Shown here piece after piece: positions 2,900 to 29,237 of a stretch of 29,240 nt of DNA (the stretch's first letter is position 1; each line of letters begins with the position of its first letter). The DNA comes from a virus. Where the stretch lies: IMG/VR virus record IMGVR_UViG_3300030329_006103, positions 26,860 to 56,099 of that record. One strand, 5' to 3'. The translations under genes and the position numbers were made by a program. The notes beneath the pieces are model-generated. The model saw only the letters and a list, made by a program, of their open reading frames with translations, had not been told where the DNA came from and did not search any database.

Positions 2900-4834
2900 T
2901 TATGAATCTCTCCAGAGATTGTTAGCGGCAAACTTAATAATTTCTGCGGCTGAATCCTCACTATAGCCGTAGTCATCTATTAGTGTTCTAACCATATCAT
3001 TGTATTTGCCTTTTTGCTTATTATCTCTGCTTTTACTCTTTGTAATAATGCGGGATATATCTTTGACTGAAGCAACTAGCTTGTTTTCGATTGCCTCTCT
3101 AAGCGGGCCATAACTCCTCCAGTCAATAGTTTCGCCGCGGCGTAACATTGCAAACATATATGCTGTGATATCACTTCTAAAGTTATCCTTAGCACTACCC
3201 TGGATGCCAATCTGTTGTTCAATTGACACCATGAAGTTTTCATCCGGATTAATCTCTTCTTTTGTAACCCGATCCTTGACCTTTGTTGCATTCACATAAG
3301 CCTCGGCATGATCTAAGTAATTATTAAATAAAGACTCTGCCTGTTCATCATATGCAGAAACAAAAGCTTTTGTAATTTCTCTTTCTAGAATTCTTAAGTA
3401 TTCCTCGTGTAGAACTTTCTGTAAGAAAATCAAATAGTTTTCTCTGGCTTCCTGATCTACAATCTGTTCTTTAACTTGCTTAACTAAAGAATCTCGAATG
3501 GAAATAGGAGTAATCATGTTCCTTTCTGAATCGGAAAGAGCGTTGTCGATTGCTTTCATAATAAACCGAGTGGAAATCCCTGTCATACCTTCGTCTATCA
3601 CCTCTTCACGGAGGTCTTCGATATCAATTTTACGAACGGAACCTTTTTCAATTATCTCTTCACCATTATACATCTTCATCTTTGTAAGAAGATCGATCTT
3701 ATTTGTTGGCTTAAGGCGAGATAATACCGCGAACATAGAGGCAAACTCTAAAGTGTGAGGGGCAAAGTGGCACTCAAAATCAGACTCATCTAGAAGTTTT
3801 TTATAGATTTTCTGTTCTTCTGAATATTCTAAACAATACGGTACGTTAACTCGTACAATTCTATCTAAAATAGCTTCATTAGTGTGTTCAGATTTAAACT
3901 TATTCCACTCAGCCTCATTGCAGTGTGAAAGAATCACGCCATCAAAATAAATCATGGCTTGCTTGCCTGGAGATGGAATTGCTTTTTCCTGTGTTGCTGT
4001 AATCATTGTATGTAAGAATTCAATTTCGTTTTTGAAGACCTCAACAAACTCTACAATACCGCGGTTGCCAACGTTAAAAGCACCATTAAGACTTAATACG
4101 CGAGGATCATCCTCTGGATATAGATCCAGTTTAGATATGTCTTCTGTACCAATAAGTATGGAAGTGTCTTGTGTGTTAGCATCCATTGGTGGAACAACAC
4201 CAACGCCTCGACGGCCTCTAATAGAGAAGGTTGTTTGTACAACAGGTACTTTCATATAATCGCCACCATATTCATTTAAGAGATTGTGTCGGCAAACCGG
4301 ACACAGATCACCCTCTATTTTTATGCCGTAAATTTCTTGAAATTTTTCCCTTAAACTTCTTGGTACCAAGTGAAGAGGCTCCTCCTGTATAGGACAACCT
4401 TCAATATGATAAATTGGCGCGGAGGCTTCTAAGGCGCGCTTAATATGCTCAACTAGTGCTGACTTGCCGGCTCCAACGGGGCCTAAAAGAAGTAAAACTT
4501 GTCGACTCTCTTCGCCTTTGAGCGATGCTGATCTCAAAAACCGCATGATTTTTGCTAAAGATCGTTCCATTCCAAAAAACTTATCTTGAAAATAATCGTA
4601 TGTTTTTAGCTGTTCGCCTCCGAAAAGCTTATTGCATCTAGAGTCAGACTCTTTCATCGCTGTAATACCATAGCTGGACAGCGCATCGTACAACCTCTTA
4701 TGTGCTAAATTGCAAATAGAGGAATCTTCTTCCAAAAGGTTAATATAATCTTCTAAAGTACCTTGAAATTTATCAGCCTTTTTGAGACTCTTATGTTTAT
4801 CTATTTCTTTAAGAAATTTTGTTGTTTTTTTCAT
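2900..4834 (-). CDS. prkA: PrkA/YeaG-family serine protein kinase
   Basis: PrkA is a serine kinase with an AAA+ domain, tied in bacteria to sporulation, nitrogen starvation and stress. I use the ATG at 4834 rather than the upstream TTG at 4861. It gives 644 residues, the length of E. coli YeaG, follows a GGGA ribosome site and begins just past the SpoVR stop. Visible features are Walker A GPVGAGKS (118-125), a CPVC pair (178-181) within the conserved DLCPVCRHNLLNEYGG stretch, and the signature ILSHCNEAEW followed by NEAILDRI and VPYCLEYSEE. The C-terminal part carries the PrkA kinase-type region. It looks full-length and intact. Its neighbours are its usual bacterial partners, SpoVR and YeaH. 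Confidence 0.95.
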   Translation of the reverse strand: MKKTTKFLKEIDKHKSLKKADKFQGTLEDYINLLEEDSSICNLAHKRLYDALSSYGITAMKESDSRCNKLFGGEQLKTYDYFQDKFFGMERSLAKIMRFLRSASLKGEESRQVLLLLGPVGAGKSALVEHIKRALEASAPIYHIEGCPIQEEPLHLVPRSLREKFQEIYGIKIEGDLCPVCRHNLLNEYGGDYMKVPVVQTTFSIRGRRGVGVVPPMDANTQDTSILIGTEDISKLDLYPEDDPRVLSLNGAFNVGNRGIVEFVEVFKNEIEFLHTMITATQEKAIPSPGKQAMIYFDGVILSHCNEAEWNKFKSEHTNEAILDRIVRVNVPYCLEYSEEQKIYKKLLDESDFECHFAPHTLEFASMFAVLSRLKPTNKIDLLTKMKMYNGEEIIEKGSVRKIDIEDLREEVIDEGMTGISTRFIMKAIDNALSDSERNMITPISIRDSLVKQVKEQIVDQEARENYLIFLQKVLHEEYLRILEREITKAFVSAYDEQAESLFNNYLDHAEAYVNATKVKDRVTKEEINPDENFMVSIEQQIGIQGSAKDNFRSDITAYMFAMLRRGETIDWRSYGPLREAIENKLVASVKDISRIITKSKSRDNKQKGKYNDMVRTLIDDYGYSEDSAAEIIKFAANNLWRDS

Positions 4835-4835
4835 T

Positions 4836-6152
4836 TTAGAATTCCCACAGTTCCTCTTCAATTATTGTTGTAAATATCACGTTGTCGCCCCATAACTCTT
4901 TTATGTGATCATAAACTTTATGGCCATGTTGTAAATTTAAATCTCTACCATCGTGGTCATGAACGATGTGCAAGCTGTTATCTTTCATTAGTTCCTCCAC
5001 ATACACAACCGGTACTGAGTTTAACCCTACTGTACTAATTAGAGCATCGCGGACGTTCTCCCACCCATCTTCGTTAGAAACATCATCTATAGTGTGTACA
5101 TTTTGCTTCTTTTTGTAAGAAAAGGCAAATAAATTCAAGTCTCTAGCCAATTGCTCATCTAAATATTTTCTTAAAAATGTTACGTCATTATGAACCTCGC
5201 GCACCATTAAGCATTCATCAAATCCTTTTTCTTCTTCGATCTTCTTAAAGATTGTATATCCTAAGTGATATGGGTTAACACCACCAAGGTGTGGCCTGAC
5301 AACTTGATTATGTAATTTTATAAAAGCCAAATGGTAGGCATGGGGCAAATTCAAATCTTTCATAATCTTTTCATGCATCATGACTGCCCAACCCTCATTC
5401 ATTATCTTAGTATACGCTTGTGGTAAGAAATATTTAGAATTTTCTTCAACAATAGAAATAACGTCGCGCTCCCAATCTTTAAGATTTCTAGAGTTTTCGC
5501 GAATGAAGGCTAATAAATTATAATCTCTTTCTAAGGGAAACTTATCTAAATCTATATCATCAAAGATACCATCCGTAGAATCTAACATTTTTTGCACATA
5601 GATGCCCTTAAGTTCCTCTTGGCTTCTTCTTTTGATTCCCGGTGTGCGTGGAATCTGGTATTTTATCGCATGGCAGGCATCAATTATTCTCTCTACCTTG
5701 TTGACGCCTATTGATGGATCTTCAAGATATTGTTGTATTCTCTTTGAACCTAATTTAAATTTAGATATTACATTGTCTGGATCAGTGTGCTTGAACATCC
5801 TATTGTTTTTAAAGAAATCACTGTGACCGACACAGTGAGACATTGTTAACAAGTGTGTGCTCATTGGGTTTTCTTTCATTAGATAGGCGATGCTTGGATT
5901 TGAATTAATAATCATCTCGTATGGTAGGCCAGTTTGCCCCATTGTATATTTTGCATGCGTTATCTCAAATAATTTTCCAAAAGACCAATGGCGATAATGG
6001 GTTGGCATACCAACATAGGACATAGCGCCAATCATTTCATGATAGTCAATTATCTCATAATCAATATCAAACCAGTCCAGCCCATAAGACTCTCCTAATT
6101 CACATATTTTTTTATCCCACTCTTCTAGATCCTTGATGTTCCACTCATCCAT
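4836..6152 (-). CDS. spoVR: SpoVR/YcgB family protein
   Basis: SpoVR-family proteins are widespread, biochemically unclear, and genetically linked to PrkA and YeaH; in Bacillus SpoVR affects the spore cortex. The start is ATG at 6152, with GGAGG upstream, rather than the TTG at 6167. This gives 438 residues, shorter than E. coli YcgB (510). Family hallmarks are plain: HWSFGKLFEITHAKY, GLPYEMIINSNPSIAYLM, then MSHCVGHSDFFKNN. The start codon overlaps the end of the YeaH gene by 8 bases, implying translational coupling. The gene looks intact; the missing length appears to be distal. Confidence 0.93.
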   Translation of the reverse strand: MDEWNIKDLEEWDKKICELGESYGLDWFDIDYEIIDYHEMIGAMSYVGMPTHYRHWSFGKLFEITHAKYTMGQTGLPYEMIINSNPSIAYLMKENPMSTHLLTMSHCVGHSDFFKNNRMFKHTDPDNVISKFKLGSKRIQQYLEDPSIGVNKVERIIDACHAIKYQIPRTPGIKRRSQEELKGIYVQKMLDSTDGIFDDIDLDKFPLERDYNLLAFIRENSRNLKDWERDVISIVEENSKYFLPQAYTKIMNEGWAVMMHEKIMKDLNLPHAYHLAFIKLHNQVVRPHLGGVNPYHLGYTIFKKIEEEKGFDECLMVREVHNDVTFLRKYLDEQLARDLNLFAFSYKKKQNVHTIDDVSNEDGWENVRDALISTVGLNSVPVVYVEELMKDNSLHIVHDHDGRDLNLQHGHKVYDHIKELWGDNVIFTTIIEEELWEF

Positions 6153-7383
6153 CAGTTTTTCCTCCAAACAATCTAGAAAATGCTGGCCAGATTGATTCTG
6201 TGTTTACTATCTTCACTCGTTTCAACGTTGAATCTTCTATTAACTTTAGCTCTTCCCACATTGATATACCCATAGGATTGTGATTTGTCCTTCTAGCGTG
6301 ATATGGTGTTTTTGTAATTGAATCTGGCCAGTTTGGATCTTGCCAACCATTGGTATCCCACGGTGTGATTTCAGTGTATGCAATTAGTTGATTAAACTGT
6401 TTCATTTCATTTAATATATTTGTAGATTTTCTAATATCACTTGGCCAGTTTTCACCATCACCAGCATAAAAAGTGTATATATTCCAAGAACTTGGATGAT
6501 ATTGTTTTTCAATTAGTTCCTTTTCTAGCTCTAATGCTGAGGACATAATTGTTCCTCCGGAAGTTATCCGTGTGAAAAACTCATTTTCATTTACTTGTTT
6601 CGCTTTTGTTGTGTGTGCAATAAATACAACTTCAACATTTTCATACTTATGTCTAATAAACTGATATAACAGGAAACAAAAGCTTCTTGCTAGAAACTTT
6701 TTGTCCTGATCCATAGAACCAGACACATCCATTATAAAAAATATAACAGCCGCTGTATTTTCTTTGTTTTTAGGCTTAACGTGGTGATATTTCAAGTCAT
6801 TTTTATGAAATGGAAAACGTTCACCACTGTCCGGATCGTGAGTACCTGCAGCAATTGCCTGCTTTTTTCGTTTGATTTTTCTTTTAAGAGTTTCTTTCTT
6901 TGAAAGTCTGGACCTTATGCCTTGTAGCCTGTGTCCTTTTCTTCTTAACTTCTCTTGATTTATAAATTTAAATCTTTTCTTTTCTAGTTCCGGCAACTGG
7001 AGGCTATCGAACAGATAACTAGCTAATTCTTCTAGACTTATTTCTACTTCGTACTTTTCTTCACCAGCTTTATCTGATGGTTTGTTTCCTTTTGAAATTC
7101 TGTTGGCTGTAGAGCGACCAACCTTTTGCCCCTTTTTTACATTAATGTCACCAGCGGATCCAACTGTTTTATTTTTATCATTTTTACCATAAACAAACCG
7201 GTACTCTTTTATTCCCTTTACCGGTATTTTTATCTTCTTTTTCCCGTTTTGACCAATAATGCTTTCTTCGGCTACAACATCTTTGATGCTTTCCTTTATG
7301 GCTTTTTCAATTTTTTCTTTATGTCGTTTTCGATCTGTAGCACTTCTATCTACGTTAGACTTGTGTTCTCTAAAGACGCTCAT
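6145..7383 (-). CDS. yeaH: YeaH/DUF444 family protein with VWA domain
   Basis: DUF444 proteins carry a von Willebrand A-like metal-binding domain and are encoded beside PrkA in many proteobacteria, where they are thought to act with the kinase. This one has 412 residues (E. coli YeaH: 427). The basic N-terminal third (residues 1-205) is followed by the MIDAS motif DVSGS at 219-223 in a hydrophobic strand, then a conserved FFTRITSGGTIMSSALE segment and YAGDGENW. An AAGGAG ribosome site precedes the ATG. It is the first protein gene after the tRNA block and may be read from the tRNA promoter; no separate promoter is evident in the 63-base gap. Confidence 0.94.
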   Translation of the reverse strand: MSVFREHKSNVDRSATDRKRHKEKIEKAIKESIKDVVAEESIIGQNGKKKIKIPVKGIKEYRFVYGKNDKNKTVGSAGDINVKKGQKVGRSTANRISKGNKPSDKAGEEKYEVEISLEELASYLFDSLQLPELEKKRFKFINQEKLRRKGHRLQGIRSRLSKKETLKRKIKRKKQAIAAGTHDPDSGERFPFHKNDLKYHHVKPKNKENTAAVIFFIMDVSGSMDQDKKFLARSFCFLLYQFIRHKYENVEVVFIAHTTKAKQVNENEFFTRITSGGTIMSSALELEKELIEKQYHPSSWNIYTFYAGDGENWPSDIRKSTNILNEMKQFNQLIAYTEITPWDTNGWQDPNWPDSITKTPYHARRTNHNPMGISMWEELKLIEDSTLKRVKIVNTESIWPAFSRLFGGKTDG

Positions 7384-21182: not shown

Positions 21183-21500
21183 TGGTGGAGGTGGGCGGAA
21201 TCGAACCGCCGTCCAAAGCATATACACTATCAAGTCGTTCACAAGCTTAGTCACAATTTGTGACAGTTGTTTTAGTTTTTTTCAATCCGACAAAACTAAA
21301 AAACAAACGTTTTTTTTGTTAGGCTCTTCTTGGACACTTGGTATGAAGAGCAACCAAGGATTAAGCAGCTAAGGCTAAATCGTAATCTGCGTTATTGGCA
21401 GTTGTATTAATTCTGACTTAAGTTTTTTTGTGATTTAGTCAGCAGTTTCACAGCTTGCACTATCCAGTACATTATACCCTGTCGATACCTTGTCACCCCC
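21183..21500 (-). ncRNA. ssrA: tmRNA (ssrA), single-piece
   Basis: tmRNA rescues ribosomes stalled on mRNAs lacking a stop codon. The 318-base gene has both tRNA-like ends: a 5' GGGGGTG pairing with 3' CACCTCC, T-arm GGCGGTTCGATTCCGCC, discriminator A and encoded CCA. In between, an internal frame ends in GCC-TTA-GCT-GCT-TAA (stop at 21363-21361). Reading back gives a likely tag ANNADYDLALAA, with the usual LAA degradation end; the exact resume codon is not certain. It is uninterrupted, not the two-piece form. Phage-carried tmRNAs are known but uncommon. Confidence 0.92.
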
Positions 21501-22756: not shown

Positions 22757-24748
22757 CTACTTTACTAAGTAGTTTAAAACATCATTAATAAATAGTTCTT
22801 TTAACTGCTTCTTTCTTTTTCTTGGCCGGCCCATGTACCCCATAGCACCAACACCAGTTGAAACACTCATCTCGTCTAACTCTTCATCTTCTACCCCAGA
22901 AAGATCGGGAGATTGAAATGGTTCGTCATGAGACGACCTTTGACCTCCCCCCAAAACTTCATGAAATATAAAACCAGCGTTCTTCAGAGAAGAATCGGGC
23001 ACAAAGTCTTTAAACCTTTCAAAATCATTATTTTTGATGGCTTTTCTTAGAACCGTAGCACTTAATTTATCACCAGTTTTTGGATCCATATATTCTTCAG
23101 GAATTTCTATGCTCAGAGGTCTAATATCTAAATCTTCTCTAGCTTGTTTAATGGATTTTCCAACAGATGCATGCGCAGGGTCTGCAGTGCTTGATGCAAT
23201 AAAAATAGTTGTGTCTGGAGGTAGTTCCATCGATTTATTATAAATTACTTGAAGGGGGCTGTTAGTAAGTATTGGGTTGCCATCTTTTCTAAGCTTTTCG
23301 CGCCCTTCTGCATCAAGCATTGGTACACCACTTTCAGGAACAAATAGTATATCTAACTCACTACGTGAGAAACCCACTCCAACCTCTTCATTTTTAAGGT
23401 AAAGATCGAGAATTCGCTTAGATTGTTCTAGAGTTATACCATCTCTTTTAGTTTCACCTGTAACTATGTAAGGTTTAGAGCCTTTTGCTTGTTCAATTGC
23501 TGTTTTTATGAGATATATATGACCTTTGTGTGGGGGCTTAAACCCACCCGGTATAAAGACAACAGAGTTTTCACCAACGGGGTGTTCTTCTTCAGACAAT
23601 GATTCGTTTCGTTTAAACGAGGAGGCTAGACCTCCCAAAATAAAGTTTCCTGTAATTTTGACAGGGTTGGCACCAAATATTTTGTCACGGAGGACAATCC
23701 CCTCATGATCCATGATTGGACCTAGTTCACTATCTAAAGGATCTAATATAGCTTGTCCGAGTAATCTTGTTGCATGATAAAACACAGCGCCATCGATTGT
23801 TTTTTTATAATCCCTTTCTGGGTTTGCTAAAATTTTTGCTACAGCGGTTGCTTCATTTGGATTTTCTGGGATTATCAACTGATAGATTTGTTTATTAACG
23901 GCAGCAACAGTGTTTCCATTATTCAGTTCTATAGTTTCTCTTTTTGGATTAATAGCAAAACTTAACCACTCACCCAATGACTTTGTGGTAGCTTCTTCGT
24001 CTAGTAAAATAGAAACAGGAGAGTTTAACACTTCGCTTAAATTAATGTCGATATTTAGCTTATTTGTTGGAACACTTCCAAAGACTTTGTAAGGTAGTCC
24101 CTGTTTTTTCATCTCTGCATTCATCTTTTGGATTAGACTAGCCATGACAGACTCGTCATATGCAATTTCAGTTGCAGCGTCTGTTATCGGCTTTTTTGTT
24201 ATAGGATCGGTTGGCCTAGGTAACCCTGGCCTTGATACTTTTCCTTTTGTTTTTGCCTCTTTTGAATAAAACTGGCTTAAATTGTGAATTGCTATAGTGT
24301 TTATTGGATCTTCGCCTTCTTGACTTCCATATTGGATAACATTTCCTAATCCAGATGCAGGTAAAAATTCTGTATTTAGATAAATTGAAGAATCATCCAT
24401 CATCCCCAAGGCTTGTAATTCTTTTTTAATTTTAGGAAAGGCTGCATCGAAGGCTGCAGCTACTGATGGAATTATATCAATAAACCCATGACCGGCCTTA
24501 AATCTTGTTTCGACATTTTTCTTTGTTAAACCAACAACATCGGCAGGGAAAAGAGATCCCCGATCTCCAGCAAATTGTTTTCCAAAGTCGCCATCAATTA
24601 ATTTAATGGGCACATTAGTACCATCAATTTTAACTGCAGCAGAGTTTTTTCTAAGGTATTCTTCTGCTTTTTGAAAAAAATTTAATAGATCTTTTCCCGT
24701 TTTAACGTTAGGTAGATCGAACGGGTGCATCATATGGGTTACGCCCAT
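22757..24748 (-). CDS. Fusion of a KxDG ligase-type nucleotidyltransferase and an HxGH nucleotidylyltransferase
   Basis: The 663-residue protein joins two nucleotide-transfer domains. Residues 1-380 look like the covalent ligase/capping superfamily: motif I KIDGTN (40-45, probable adenylated K40), a motif III-like YLNTEFL (123-129), motif IV EGIVLRD (349-355) and motif V PVKITGNF (362-369). Residues 395-600 are an HxGH nucleotidylyltransferase (FIPGGFKPPHKGH 398-410, SATVLRKAI 563-571), as in NMN or pantetheine-phosphate adenylyltransferases. A basic C-terminal tail follows. A role in RNA repair, NAD metabolism or RNA end modification is possible; none is proven. AAGGAGAT supports the first ATG. 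Confidence 0.72.
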   Translation of the reverse strand: MGVTHMMHPFDLPNVKTGKDLLNFFQKAEEYLRKNSAAVKIDGTNVPIKLIDGDFGKQFAGDRGSLFPADVVGLTKKNVETRFKAGHGFIDIIPSVAAAFDAAFPKIKKELQALGMMDDSSIYLNTEFLPASGLGNVIQYGSQEGEDPINTIAIHNLSQFYSKEAKTKGKVSRPGLPRPTDPITKKPITDAATEIAYDESVMASLIQKMNAEMKKQGLPYKVFGSVPTNKLNIDINLSEVLNSPVSILLDEEATTKSLGEWLSFAINPKRETIELNNGNTVAAVNKQIYQLIIPENPNEATAVAKILANPERDYKKTIDGAVFYHATRLLGQAILDPLDSELGPIMDHEGIVLRDKIFGANPVKITGNFILGGLASSFKRNESLSEEEHPVGENSVVFIPGGFKPPHKGHIYLIKTAIEQAKGSKPYIVTGETKRDGITLEQSKRILDLYLKNEEVGVGFSRSELDILFVPESGVPMLDAEGREKLRKDGNPILTNSPLQVIYNKSMELPPDTTIFIASSTADPAHASVGKSIKQAREDLDIRPLSIEIPEEYMDPKTGDKLSATVLRKAIKNNDFERFKDFVPDSSLKNAGFIFHEVLGGGQRSSHDEPFQSPDLSGVEDEELDEMSVSTGVGAMGYMGRPRKRKKQLKELFINDVLNYLVK

Positions 24749-27609: not shown

Positions 27610-28077
27610 TTATTTTTGTTCGTCTTCTCCAATGTAGGTAAGTTTTCGCATCTCAGAGTCTTCCTTAGACCCAGGAGCTTGAGCTACTGTTCTTTTATCT
27701 TGTGGGGGATTGGCTCCGTGCTCAATAAGGGCGTTCATGGCGTTTCCTAGGCAGTTGAATGCTTGCTGAACCATCTCATATACCGCATCGTATTCTGGGT
27801 TGTCTAAGAGGCGCACAGCGTTGTCTACGGCTTGTCTAGCAGCAAAGACCTCATCATAAAGATCATCTGCTGGTACACGCTCGTCTTCTAAATCACCCCG
27901 TGGGGACTGACGAAGTGGTACAAAAGGAACATCATCGGCGCTCATAATTCCGCCGTTAAATTCATTAATTTGTTCTTTAATTTCATCACCGAATAATTCA
28001 ACAGCTTCGTCATCTGTTAAAATAACTTCAAGTTCTTCTTTAATTAATTGTAATAATCTTGCTTTTGTAGTTTTCAT
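27610..28077 (-). CDS. Protein with shared MK-x-TK N-terminal helix (copy 4)
   Basis: I call 155 residues from ATG 28077, which has AAGGAT 8 bases upstream; the longer in-frame start inside the previous gene is rejected. It begins MKTTKARLLQLIKEELEVIL, matching the N-termini of its three upstream neighbours. The body is acidic, with a helical core AARQAVDNAVRLLDNPEYDAVYEMVQQAFNCLG and disordered linkers; no family recognised. If the head segment is a packaging signal, cleavage would be expected after LIKE. Confidence 0.75.
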   Translation of the reverse strand: MKTTKARLLQLIKEELEVILTDDEAVELFGDEIKEQINEFNGGIMSADDVPFVPLRQSPRGDLEDERVPADDLYDEVFAARQAVDNAVRLLDNPEYDAVYEMVQQAFNCLGNAMNALIEHGANPPQDKRTVAQAPGSKEDSEMRKLTYIGEDEQK

Positions 28078-28079
28078 TT

Positions 28080-28565
28080 TTAATCCTTTAAGCTCGGTAC
28101 ATCTAACATTTTTTCTTCCCCGGGGATCCATCTAAACACTGGATTGATAAGGTCTACAGGGTCTGGCTCGTAAACATAAAATATATCATTCAAATCTGTA
28201 CTAGGTATATAGTCCCCGGCATAAAATACTAACCAATCCTTTATTCGATCACGGTCAATGCTGTTGGGAATATAAATGGATCTAGATAGACCTGCTAGCC
28301 ACCATTTACCTGAATTTTTGATTTCTTTTTGTTCCGCATCAAATTTTGCGCTTTTTGTTGCAAACTTTTGAGCCTTAACCTTTCGGTCAGCTGCATGTTG
28401 CTTCGCCGCCTTCTCTGCGCGCTTTTGTTTGTGAACGGCCAAAGTATCTTGACGGACAGTCTCTTCTTCAGAAGCTTCTGTTAATTCTTCAGTTTTTCGA
28501 TGAAACTCTCTATAGAAGAGTTCTTCTTTAACTATAGCTCTCAACTTTGACATGGAGTATTTCAT
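28080..28565 (-). CDS. Protein with shared MK-x-TK N-terminal helix (copy 3, divergent)
   Basis: This is a 161-residue protein starting MKYSMSKLRAIVKEELFYRE, a diverged form of the shared helix (IVKEEL in place of IIKEEL). A long lysine- and glutamate-rich helix (about 28-82) is followed by a compact C-terminal domain (WWLAGLSRSIYIPNSIDRDR ... PVFRWIPGEEKM) that looks globular. No enzyme motif is seen. It lies 2 bases upstream of copy 4, with no strong ribosome site. Confidence 0.7.
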   Translation of the reverse strand: MKYSMSKLRAIVKEELFYREFHRKTEELTEASEEETVRQDTLAVHKQKRAEKAAKQHAADRKVKAQKFATKSAKFDAEQKEIKNSGKWWLAGLSRSIYIPNSIDRDRIKDWLVFYAGDYIPSTDLNDIFYVYEPDPVDLINPVFRWIPGEEKMLDVPSLKD

Positions 28566-28569
28566 AATA

Positions 28570-29001
28570 TTATAACTTAGCCTTTACTAATTGTAATAAA
28601 GTATTCGCAGAACCGCTCATCGCAGCTTTCCGACCGTTGGGATCCCGCAGCGCGGCTTGAATAGCCCGCATCGCCCGGTCAGCACTGACGAGCTGAAGAT
28701 TGTTCTGTAGAAGATCAAAAAACCCTTTATTGACTAGATTAGCTGGTAATCCGGCACGAATGAGGTGCTCTCTTTCTACTCTAAAGCCTCCCAACCTACC
28801 CTCTTGTTCTAATCCAAGCTTGCTAATGGCAATTGCATATGCTTGATCTTTTTCATAACCTTCTTCTGACTGTAGCATTTTCGCTTTAGCATGTACTTTT
28901 GCCGGCAGCTCTTTGTGCTGCGCTTCGGTTAGATTTTCAAGATACCCCCTTAGAAACTCTTCCTTGATAATCTCTTTTAGTCTTTGTTTGGTGATTTTCA
29001 T
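28570..29001 (-). CDS. Protein with shared MKITKQRL N-terminal helix (copy 2)
   Basis: This is 143 residues starting MKITKQRLKEIIKEEFLRG, with AGGAAG before the ATG and a TAATG overlap with the previous gene. After the shared helix comes a short charged region, then AKMLQSEEGYEKDQAYAIAISKLGLEQEG, a pattern often found in phage head- or protease-associated proteins, and a helical C-terminal domain. No enzymatic motif. The first 44 coding bases are nearly identical to those of copy 1. Confidence 0.75.
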   Translation of the reverse strand: MKITKQRLKEIIKEEFLRGYLENLTEAQHKELPAKVHAKAKMLQSEEGYEKDQAYAIAISKLGLEQEGRLGGFRVEREHLIRAGLPANLVNKGFFDLLQNNLQLVSADRAMRAIQAALRDPNGRKAAMSGSANTLLQLVKAKL

Positions 29002-29236
29002 TATTCTTCCTCAAAAAACTGAACTTCGCCTCGCCTGGGCCTTCTTTCAGGTATAGGATATTGCTTTTCTAGGTTGTGAACCAGTCTCGTTAGAGCTGCA
29101 AACCCTTCCTCATCAATAGTGGAATGCAAAAGAAGCCTTTTTATTCGGGATACCAATTTATCTCTGTCGCGCGCACCCAGACGTTCCAGAAGCTCTTCCT
29201 TGATAATCTCTTTAAGTCTTTGTTTGGTGATTTTCA
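28957..29236 (-). repeat. Duplicated 44-bp gene start
   Basis: Bases 28957-29000 and 29193-29236 match at 43 of 44 positions and both encode the beginning of a MKITKQRLKEIIKEE protein. Identity falls off at once outside this stretch, so the 5' coding segment was copied or recombined as a unit. Confidence 0.85.
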
Positions 29237-29237
29237 C
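29001..29237 (-). CDS. Protein with shared MKITKQRL N-terminal helix (copy 1)
   Basis: This is 78 residues. The start is GTG at 29237, chosen because it lines up exactly with the MKITKQRLKEIIKEEL start of copy 2; only 3 bases remain upstream, so its ribosome site is outside the window and a longer protein cannot be fully excluded. The rest is a basic, Arg-rich helical domain with an acidic end (RRPRRGEVQFFEEE). No family recognised. Confidence 0.7.
   Translation of the reverse strand: MKITKQRLKEIIKEELLERLGARDRDKLVSRIKRLLLHSTIDEEGFAALTRLVHNLEKQYPIPERRPRRGEVQFFEEE

Follow-up and report, generated by a model that had tools for sequence, protein, structure and literature searches.

The N-terminal helix shared by four tandem genes of a T4-like phage is, in our reading, a prohead-targeting propeptide, equivalent in function to the capsid targeting sequence of T4; we put the probability of this at about 0.74. 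The observations behind it are the leader itself, its distribution, a prohead protease in the same genome, the enrichment of a cleavage motif and the exchange of leaders between proteins. From them we infer the steps of targeting, cleavage and injection, and an effect on the host: the leader helix would bring a small protein into the prohead core, the S77 (gp21-type) protease of the phage would cut after [LI]-x-E at the leader end, and the freed mature protein would remain with the DNA and enter the next host. The leader would act as a swappable module, drawn from at least three unrelated families (KITK, ENW and YIR) and carried by an open-ended set of mostly unrecognised proteins. Our best reading is thus of propeptides like those on the internal proteins of T4, but belonging to several interchangeable families and numbering up to ~40 per genome.

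The leader array and its surroundings

The window, by which we mean the whole stretch of DNA analysed (29,240 bases), is the right-hand part of a 56,099-bp viral record. At its right end, on the minus strand, four adjacent genes (27610-29237) begin with a common basic helix of 16 residues. The genes and their leaders are as follows, with an arrow marking each candidate cut.

29001..29237, minus strand: gene A, 78 aa, GTG start, KITK leader MKITKQRLKEIIKEELLE; candidate site LLE18↓R; matrix score 46.4
29184..29237, minus strand: leader of gene A, residues 1-18
28570..29001, minus strand: gene B, 143 aa, KITK leader; candidate site NLTE26↓A; matrix score 43.1
28924..29001, minus strand: leader of gene B, residues 1-26
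28080..28565, minus strand: gene C, 161 aa, divergent KITK leader; candidate site ELTE30↓A; matrix score 15.0
28476..28565, minus strand: leader of gene C, residues 1-30
27610..28077, minus strand: gene D, 155 aa, KITK leader; matrix score 29.3
28018..28077, minus strand: leader of gene D, residues 1-20, the end not set by any cleavage motif

Scores are from a position weight matrix for the KITK leader built from leaders on other contigs, on which shuffled N-termini never scored 8 (nine records, 20 shuffles each). The candidate site of gene C is the only [LI]xE within its residues 1-45, and at residue 14 this gene has VKE, not IKE. The ATG of gene D, at 28077, sits within a longer open frame; its residues 1 to ~45 are common to leader proteins from other phage records, and it has no canonical site between residues 14 and 35.

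A longer record of the same phage, IMGVR_UViG_3300020477_001447 (G100, 100,743 bp), includes the 56,099-bp record in full (99.97% identical). There the leader array consists of six tandem genes, of which gene A is the third, and genes upstream of the array open with a second leader type (MKIIMENWKRFLNEE, MKLLLENWRKFLTEV). With the first 18 residues removed, BLAST among genes A-D and two further array members gave no mutual match better than E 0.03, so that the cargo can be called unrelated at the sensitivity of BLAST. Gene calls, matrix scores and BLAST therefore agree with the original prediction of four tandem genes with a common start and otherwise unrelated sequences; the four genes of the window stand, but the array runs on past its edge. 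More widely, when 140 leader proteins were aligned, a majority consensus was confined to the leader columns.

Pfam and PHROG scans of genes A-D gave nothing credible (a cyanate-lyase match below cut-off for gene D, and phrog_2423 at 0.006 for gene B), leaving the cargo in the window without a recognised domain. Modelled with AlphaFold from its single sequence (mean pLDDT 69), gene B forms a helix over residues 5-22 that is followed, after a break, by a separate helical domain. Residues 31-60 are better scored, and the candidate site E26 falls between the helix and this stretch; a fold search with the model returned no matches.

Several other features of this phage and its relatives are recorded here in their own right. 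The window encodes a tmRNA (21183-21500, minus strand) with the tag ANNADYDLALAA, together with nine tRNA genes. A three-gene set, PrkA - SpoVR-like - YeaH (DUF444), occupies 2900-7383 on the minus strand of this T4-like phage (PrkA E 4e-142, DUF444 6e-104), the middle gene being what we take to be SpoVR, and two jumbo phage records have genes ~50-63% identical to the set. A block of glycosyltransferase-, sugar-nucleotide- and NeuB-like genes, named by eye, separates tail-type genes from the left end of the window (G000:12268-26201; L001, L002). In a different record, two KITK leaders lie ~92 codons apart in one open frame (L117:5040-5963, minus strand), perhaps a fusion of two cargo genes. 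Finally, a 663-aa protein of the window (22757-24748, minus strand) has a cytidyltransferase-like match (phrog_3041, 5e-8); a putative cyanophage cytidylyltransferase (T4-GC190) was detected in virions (PMC3037559).

The motif at the leader end

The leader search pattern left residues 16 onward free. Among 287 nonredundant KITK proteins, 142 have [LI]xE with the E at residues 19-28, against 36.4 +/- 5.9 in 200 shuffles (largest 51), bearing in mind that the leaders are related to one another and these counts are not independent events. The E peaks at positions 21 (41 proteins, 3.9 expected from the shuffles), 22 (71; 3.9) and 27 (15; 3.8). Ten other [LI]x-residue combinations show no comparable enrichment. 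The residues A, G, N and S are preferred directly after the motif, and conservation drops past the E. The remaining 145 proteins, gene D included, have no [LI]xE at 19-28, and in 36 of them L/I at 21/22 is replaced by M or V. Thus an L/I-x-E end describes the family as a whole, not every protein. In single records the proportion with [LI]xE starting at 16-28 is as low as 3/14, a range that also misses the earlier ENW and YIR sites.

In the ENW leader, E lies six residues after W in 24 of 35 nonredundant proteins (background 8%), the final residue not having been fixed in the search. The YIR leader (MKHLRQYIRKILLTEA type) is found in 30 proteins, mostly from jumbo records, with a raw count of 29 [LI]xE matches four to six residues after R, 19 of them at five; here the search fixed hydrophobic residues near the site, not E. 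Neither the ENW nor the YIR regular expression matched any random control locus. Both the variable spacing of the motif and its reappearance at the ends of unrelated leaders point to selection.

The phages' own capsid proteins provide a reference. In 14 of 14 distinct gp23-like major capsid proteins (chosen by a downstream fold motif, with duplicates removed and a false match, G009 of 1165 aa, left out), [LI][KR]E↓[ASQ] occurs at residue 58-61. The conserved fold follows after another 15-28 residues, and by eye the site corresponds in position to T4 gp23 E65. The capsid propeptides hold further [LI]xE motifs, so that the choice of this site rests on position. The specificity of gp21 is given as L/I-X-E (PMC9026906), and in T4 itself, taken as a control, E10 of IPII and IPIII, E19 of IPI and E65 of gp23 are all preceded by L/I-x.

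It had been proposed that the leaders are cut after [IL]-x-E, with the IKE or VKE at residue 14 as the site. The motif type is upheld by the enrichment over shuffles, but position 14 is probably wrong as the usual site: to judge from the sequences, a cut at the second [LI]-x-E, at residues 18-30, is likelier, and we set IKE-14 aside as a general site. The letters of IKE-14 were fixed by the search pattern, and their conservation in the retrieved set is therefore no evidence either way. In proteins like gene D, which lack a canonical second site, IKE-14 may be a candidate cut.

Head genes, placement and distribution

G100 encodes a T4-type terminase, a portal protein (PF07230, E 5.6e-80) and a Peptidase_S77 prohead protease (PF03420, E 5.5e-31); it lacks a Gp23 match because the contig ends before gp23. 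A T4-like head module, in the order terminase, gp20 portal, S77 protease and gp23, is thus represented by the first three in the same phage and by gp23 in its relatives. The gp21-like protease that the original prediction suggested seeking nearby is therefore present, both in this phage and in most large leader-bearing records. We also note a ribosomal protein S21-like gene (PF01165, 3e-10) after S77 in the head module of G100 (99710-99943; L285) and of its relatives L131-L150, with a similar gene likewise in the head module of Mel-JY01. In the L131-L150 head cassettes, a conserved protein of ~135 aa adjoining S77 begins with MKKSELKxxLKPLVKECIKE...EEG; by eye this resembles a leader, but it scores below the matrix threshold.

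Scanning the 62 pattern-found records of ~15 kb or more (smaller ones were left out), we found PF03420 in 22/24 large leader records and in 21/38 further records, among the matches listed. For records of at least 100 kb the figures, again among the matches listed, are 16/17 and 3/4, or 19/21 in total; the two negatives lack gp23, and their portal is absent or only cut-off. No S77 gene was detected in 32 random IMG/VR contigs, which are shorter on average (ten of at least 40 kb, none of at least 100 kb); those ten were negative again in a repeat scan in which the T4 positive control matched. When 13 of 22 leader records without S77 were scanned further, Gp23 was absent from all 13 and the portal from 12, the thirteenth having only a piece of portal at the contig end. 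These records look like pieces without the head module, not like phages without a protease. The co-occurrence of S77 and leaders could reflect shared ancestry, both marking one phage clade.

Neighbourhoods of S77 were covered for 20 of 22 records (G005 and G016 were left out), and leader genes lie within -4/+3 kb of it in 9/20 cassettes by a loose rule, or 8/20 by the matrix threshold, as raw counts. Of the 51 KITK genes in eight non-jumbo records, 30 are located no more than 16.5 kb upstream of S77, a number reached in 0 of 20,000 circular shifts, the distance having been picked after the positions were seen (p is 0.00015 at 20 kb, 0.0013 at 10 kb and 0.13 at 5 kb). The corresponding count for two jumbo records is 2/48. 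Strand agreement with the protease is uninformative because the genomes are almost one-directional, and TATAAATA, looked for ahead of leader genes, was not found.

A search for the leader start beyond the window, as the original prediction had proposed for the rest of the genome and related contigs, yielded, besides the six-gene array of G100, at least 120 stretches in IMG/VR that match a degenerate leader DNA pattern, and many of the contigs have several such stretches each. Leader proteins number 4 to 36 per record. The helix is not widespread in cellular genomes, an occurrence that had been named as grounds against the idea: in 84,980 cellular species genomes the same pattern matched 8 stretches on six contigs, all titled as metagenome-assembled genomes (MAGs). 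One of these contigs (305,838 bp) has its own S77 gene and 42 leader genes within the 280 kb examined, and therefore is most likely a binned jumbo phage; for another, S77 lies on a different contig of the same MAG, while the MAGs of the remaining matching contigs have no S77. Given this near-absence from cellular genomes, we rule out a cellular protein family.

Among cultured phages, a tblastn search with the 20-residue leader gave no match (low-complexity masking is probable), nor did a search with gene D, and the leader DNA gave weak matches only, which we take as chance. No KITK leader was seen above threshold in the whole record of Flavobacterium phage vB_FspM_immuto, in ~50 kb each of Mel-JY01 and RM378, or, by eye, in 26 N-termini of P-HM2. 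A literature search covering few subscription papers turned up neither a description of the KITK, ENW or YIR leaders nor a virion proteome of a leader-bearing phage.

Cargo, alternative readings and known systems

Most mature parts of the leader proteins have no recognised domain, and some of the enzymes among the rest are host-takeover-like or counter-defence-like. Pfam scans of 140 KITK proteins found ten families with one member each, four of which are leucine-rich-repeat models on a single protein; the same set gave two PHROG families and two weak PADLOC matches. Behind the three leaders taken together, the cargo includes GNAT acetyltransferases (E 2.2e-8, 7.8e-7), NUDIX hydrolases (3.3e-15, 4.8e-17), an S-adenosylmethionine (SAM) lyase domain (4.9e-13), zeta-toxin-like kinases (1.4e-5, 4.9e-14), a LigT-like phosphoesterase below cut-off (4e-4), leucine-rich repeats and a ribosome-modulation-factor match (1e-4). 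A SAM lyase and acetyltransferases fit early modification of the host or its defences. The SAM lyase protein has no match among PDB sequences, and one of its PHROG matches carries the name SAM-dependent methyltransferase. For the 2H-phosphoesterase-like protein, whose single-sequence model has a pLDDT of 40, the sole PDB sequence match is Acb1 (E 0.31); a two-sequence profile gave no support to a relationship with Acb1, and we therefore make no anti-CBASS claim.

Homologous cargo is found behind different leaders, as an exchangeable tag predicts. KITK and ENW proteins pair in this way as L272 and L096 (63% over 115 aa), L082 and L052 (79% over 48 aa), L016 and L072 (33% over 177 aa, both GNAT) and L016 and L010 (~30%), and a KITK protein of G102 is 45% identical over 231 aa to a protein of the window's own phage that starts EIWKKFLEES. 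Alignment rows to proteins labelled leaderless number 184 from KITK cargo and 23 from ENW cargo; among the homologues listed, many have divergent leader-like starts, and some, such as L060 (839 aa), have none.

There are other possible explanations for a shared start of this kind. Were the leader a permanent, uncut helix that docks proteins to the scaffold, portal vertex or tail, these would be structural or assembly factors, not injected effectors; leader proteins close to the protease in 9 (or, with the matrix threshold, 8) of 20 cassettes, the lack of a terminal [LI]xE in about half of KITK proteins, and mature parts that mostly have no recognised domain would all suit such a role. We nevertheless think it unlikely, given that the terminal motif is protease-like ([LI]xE being the only combination strongly enriched) and ends three unrelated leaders, and that some of the cargo proteins are enzymes, with NUDIX, GNAT and SAM lyase domains. 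Less probable again is a role unrelated to the virion, in which the leader would direct new proteins during infection to a partner in the host or to a place within the cell, such as the membrane or a replication site. The helix is basic by sequence and in the model, and jumbo records have large arrays far from head genes, both of which would agree with such an address, but two things speak against it: the leader motif agrees with that of the prohead protease and with the cleavage position in the capsid proteins of these phages, and KITK genes cluster upstream of head genes in non-jumbo records.

The leader DNA of genes A and B is nearly identical, and the arrays resemble the products of duplication and cargo exchange, as might be expected if the common start were conserved for its DNA, as a signal for recombination or translation, and the peptide had no role. 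This is contradicted by one identical leader peptide for which 25 copies have 22 DNA versions, the variable sites being 13 at third, 1 at first and 0 at second codon positions. With leader DNA varying almost solely at third positions, we rejected a DNA-level signal as highly improbable, the least credible of the readings considered. A prohead-targeting propeptide is the reading that we retain.

In T4, diverse internal proteins lie behind the capsid targeting sequence (PMC9026906, PMC3012670). As with IPI, IPII, IPIII and the Alt propeptide, the leaders described here are short N-terminal segments on unrelated small proteins and end in L/I-x-E; an S77 protease is encoded, and the cargo differs between related phages, as these sources describe for T4 (PMC9026906, PMC3012670). 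Where T4 has four such proteins, the records here have 4 to 42 each; their leaders fall into at least three families, and cargo has been exchanged between leader types. By eye, the KITK leader has no evident similarity to MKTYQEFIAEA, and the ENW leader shares with the T4 internal-protein leaders only aromatic...[FY][LI]xE. The likeness to a T4-type capsid-targeting sequence therefore holds for architecture and cleavage motif but not for similarity to the T4 leader itself.

In the giant phage SPN3US, too, a prohead protease removes N-terminal propeptides from head proteins, including ejected ones (PMC10052503). That system differs in that gp245 cuts after A-X-E and in that most propeptides are of 111-254 residues, with two of 20 and 24, and the portion of the description available to us mentions no shared leader on many unrelated proteins (PMC10052503). 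Flavobacterium phage vB_FspM_immuto (MW353175) has a related capsid protein (~48% identity), and grouping its N-termini de novo placed nine proteins in three recurrent groups (L224-L227). These N-termini include MKKSxL..I[IK]KE-like starts, and two of the groups end near [LI]xE. Also among its recurrent starts are MKKQILSEQF[KR]RMQxLAGIITES and MENFDLKKFLVENKLTxNS, which may be leaders, here in a phage that has been cultured; no virion proteome of immuto was found in the literature searched.

To find which phage proteins enter a host with the DNA, before phage gene expression, takes virion proteomics of isolates in culture. Should the leaders be capsid-targeting propeptides, sequence alone would be enough to list injected proteins and to predict their mature N-termini, and the list would be rich in proteins outside known families. 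A leader scan might then reveal injected counter-defence proteins in uncultured phages, the leader would offer a portable tag for loading proteins into the T4-like capsids of non-enteric phages, and the gain and swapping of internal proteins during the arms race over defence could be studied. At even odds, in our judgement, the interchangeable leaders of marine T4-superfamily phages are an address code for a virion-delivered arsenal of up to ~40 proteins per genome, including SAM lyase, GNAT, NUDIX, zeta-toxin-like kinase and 2H-phosphoesterase-like cargo.
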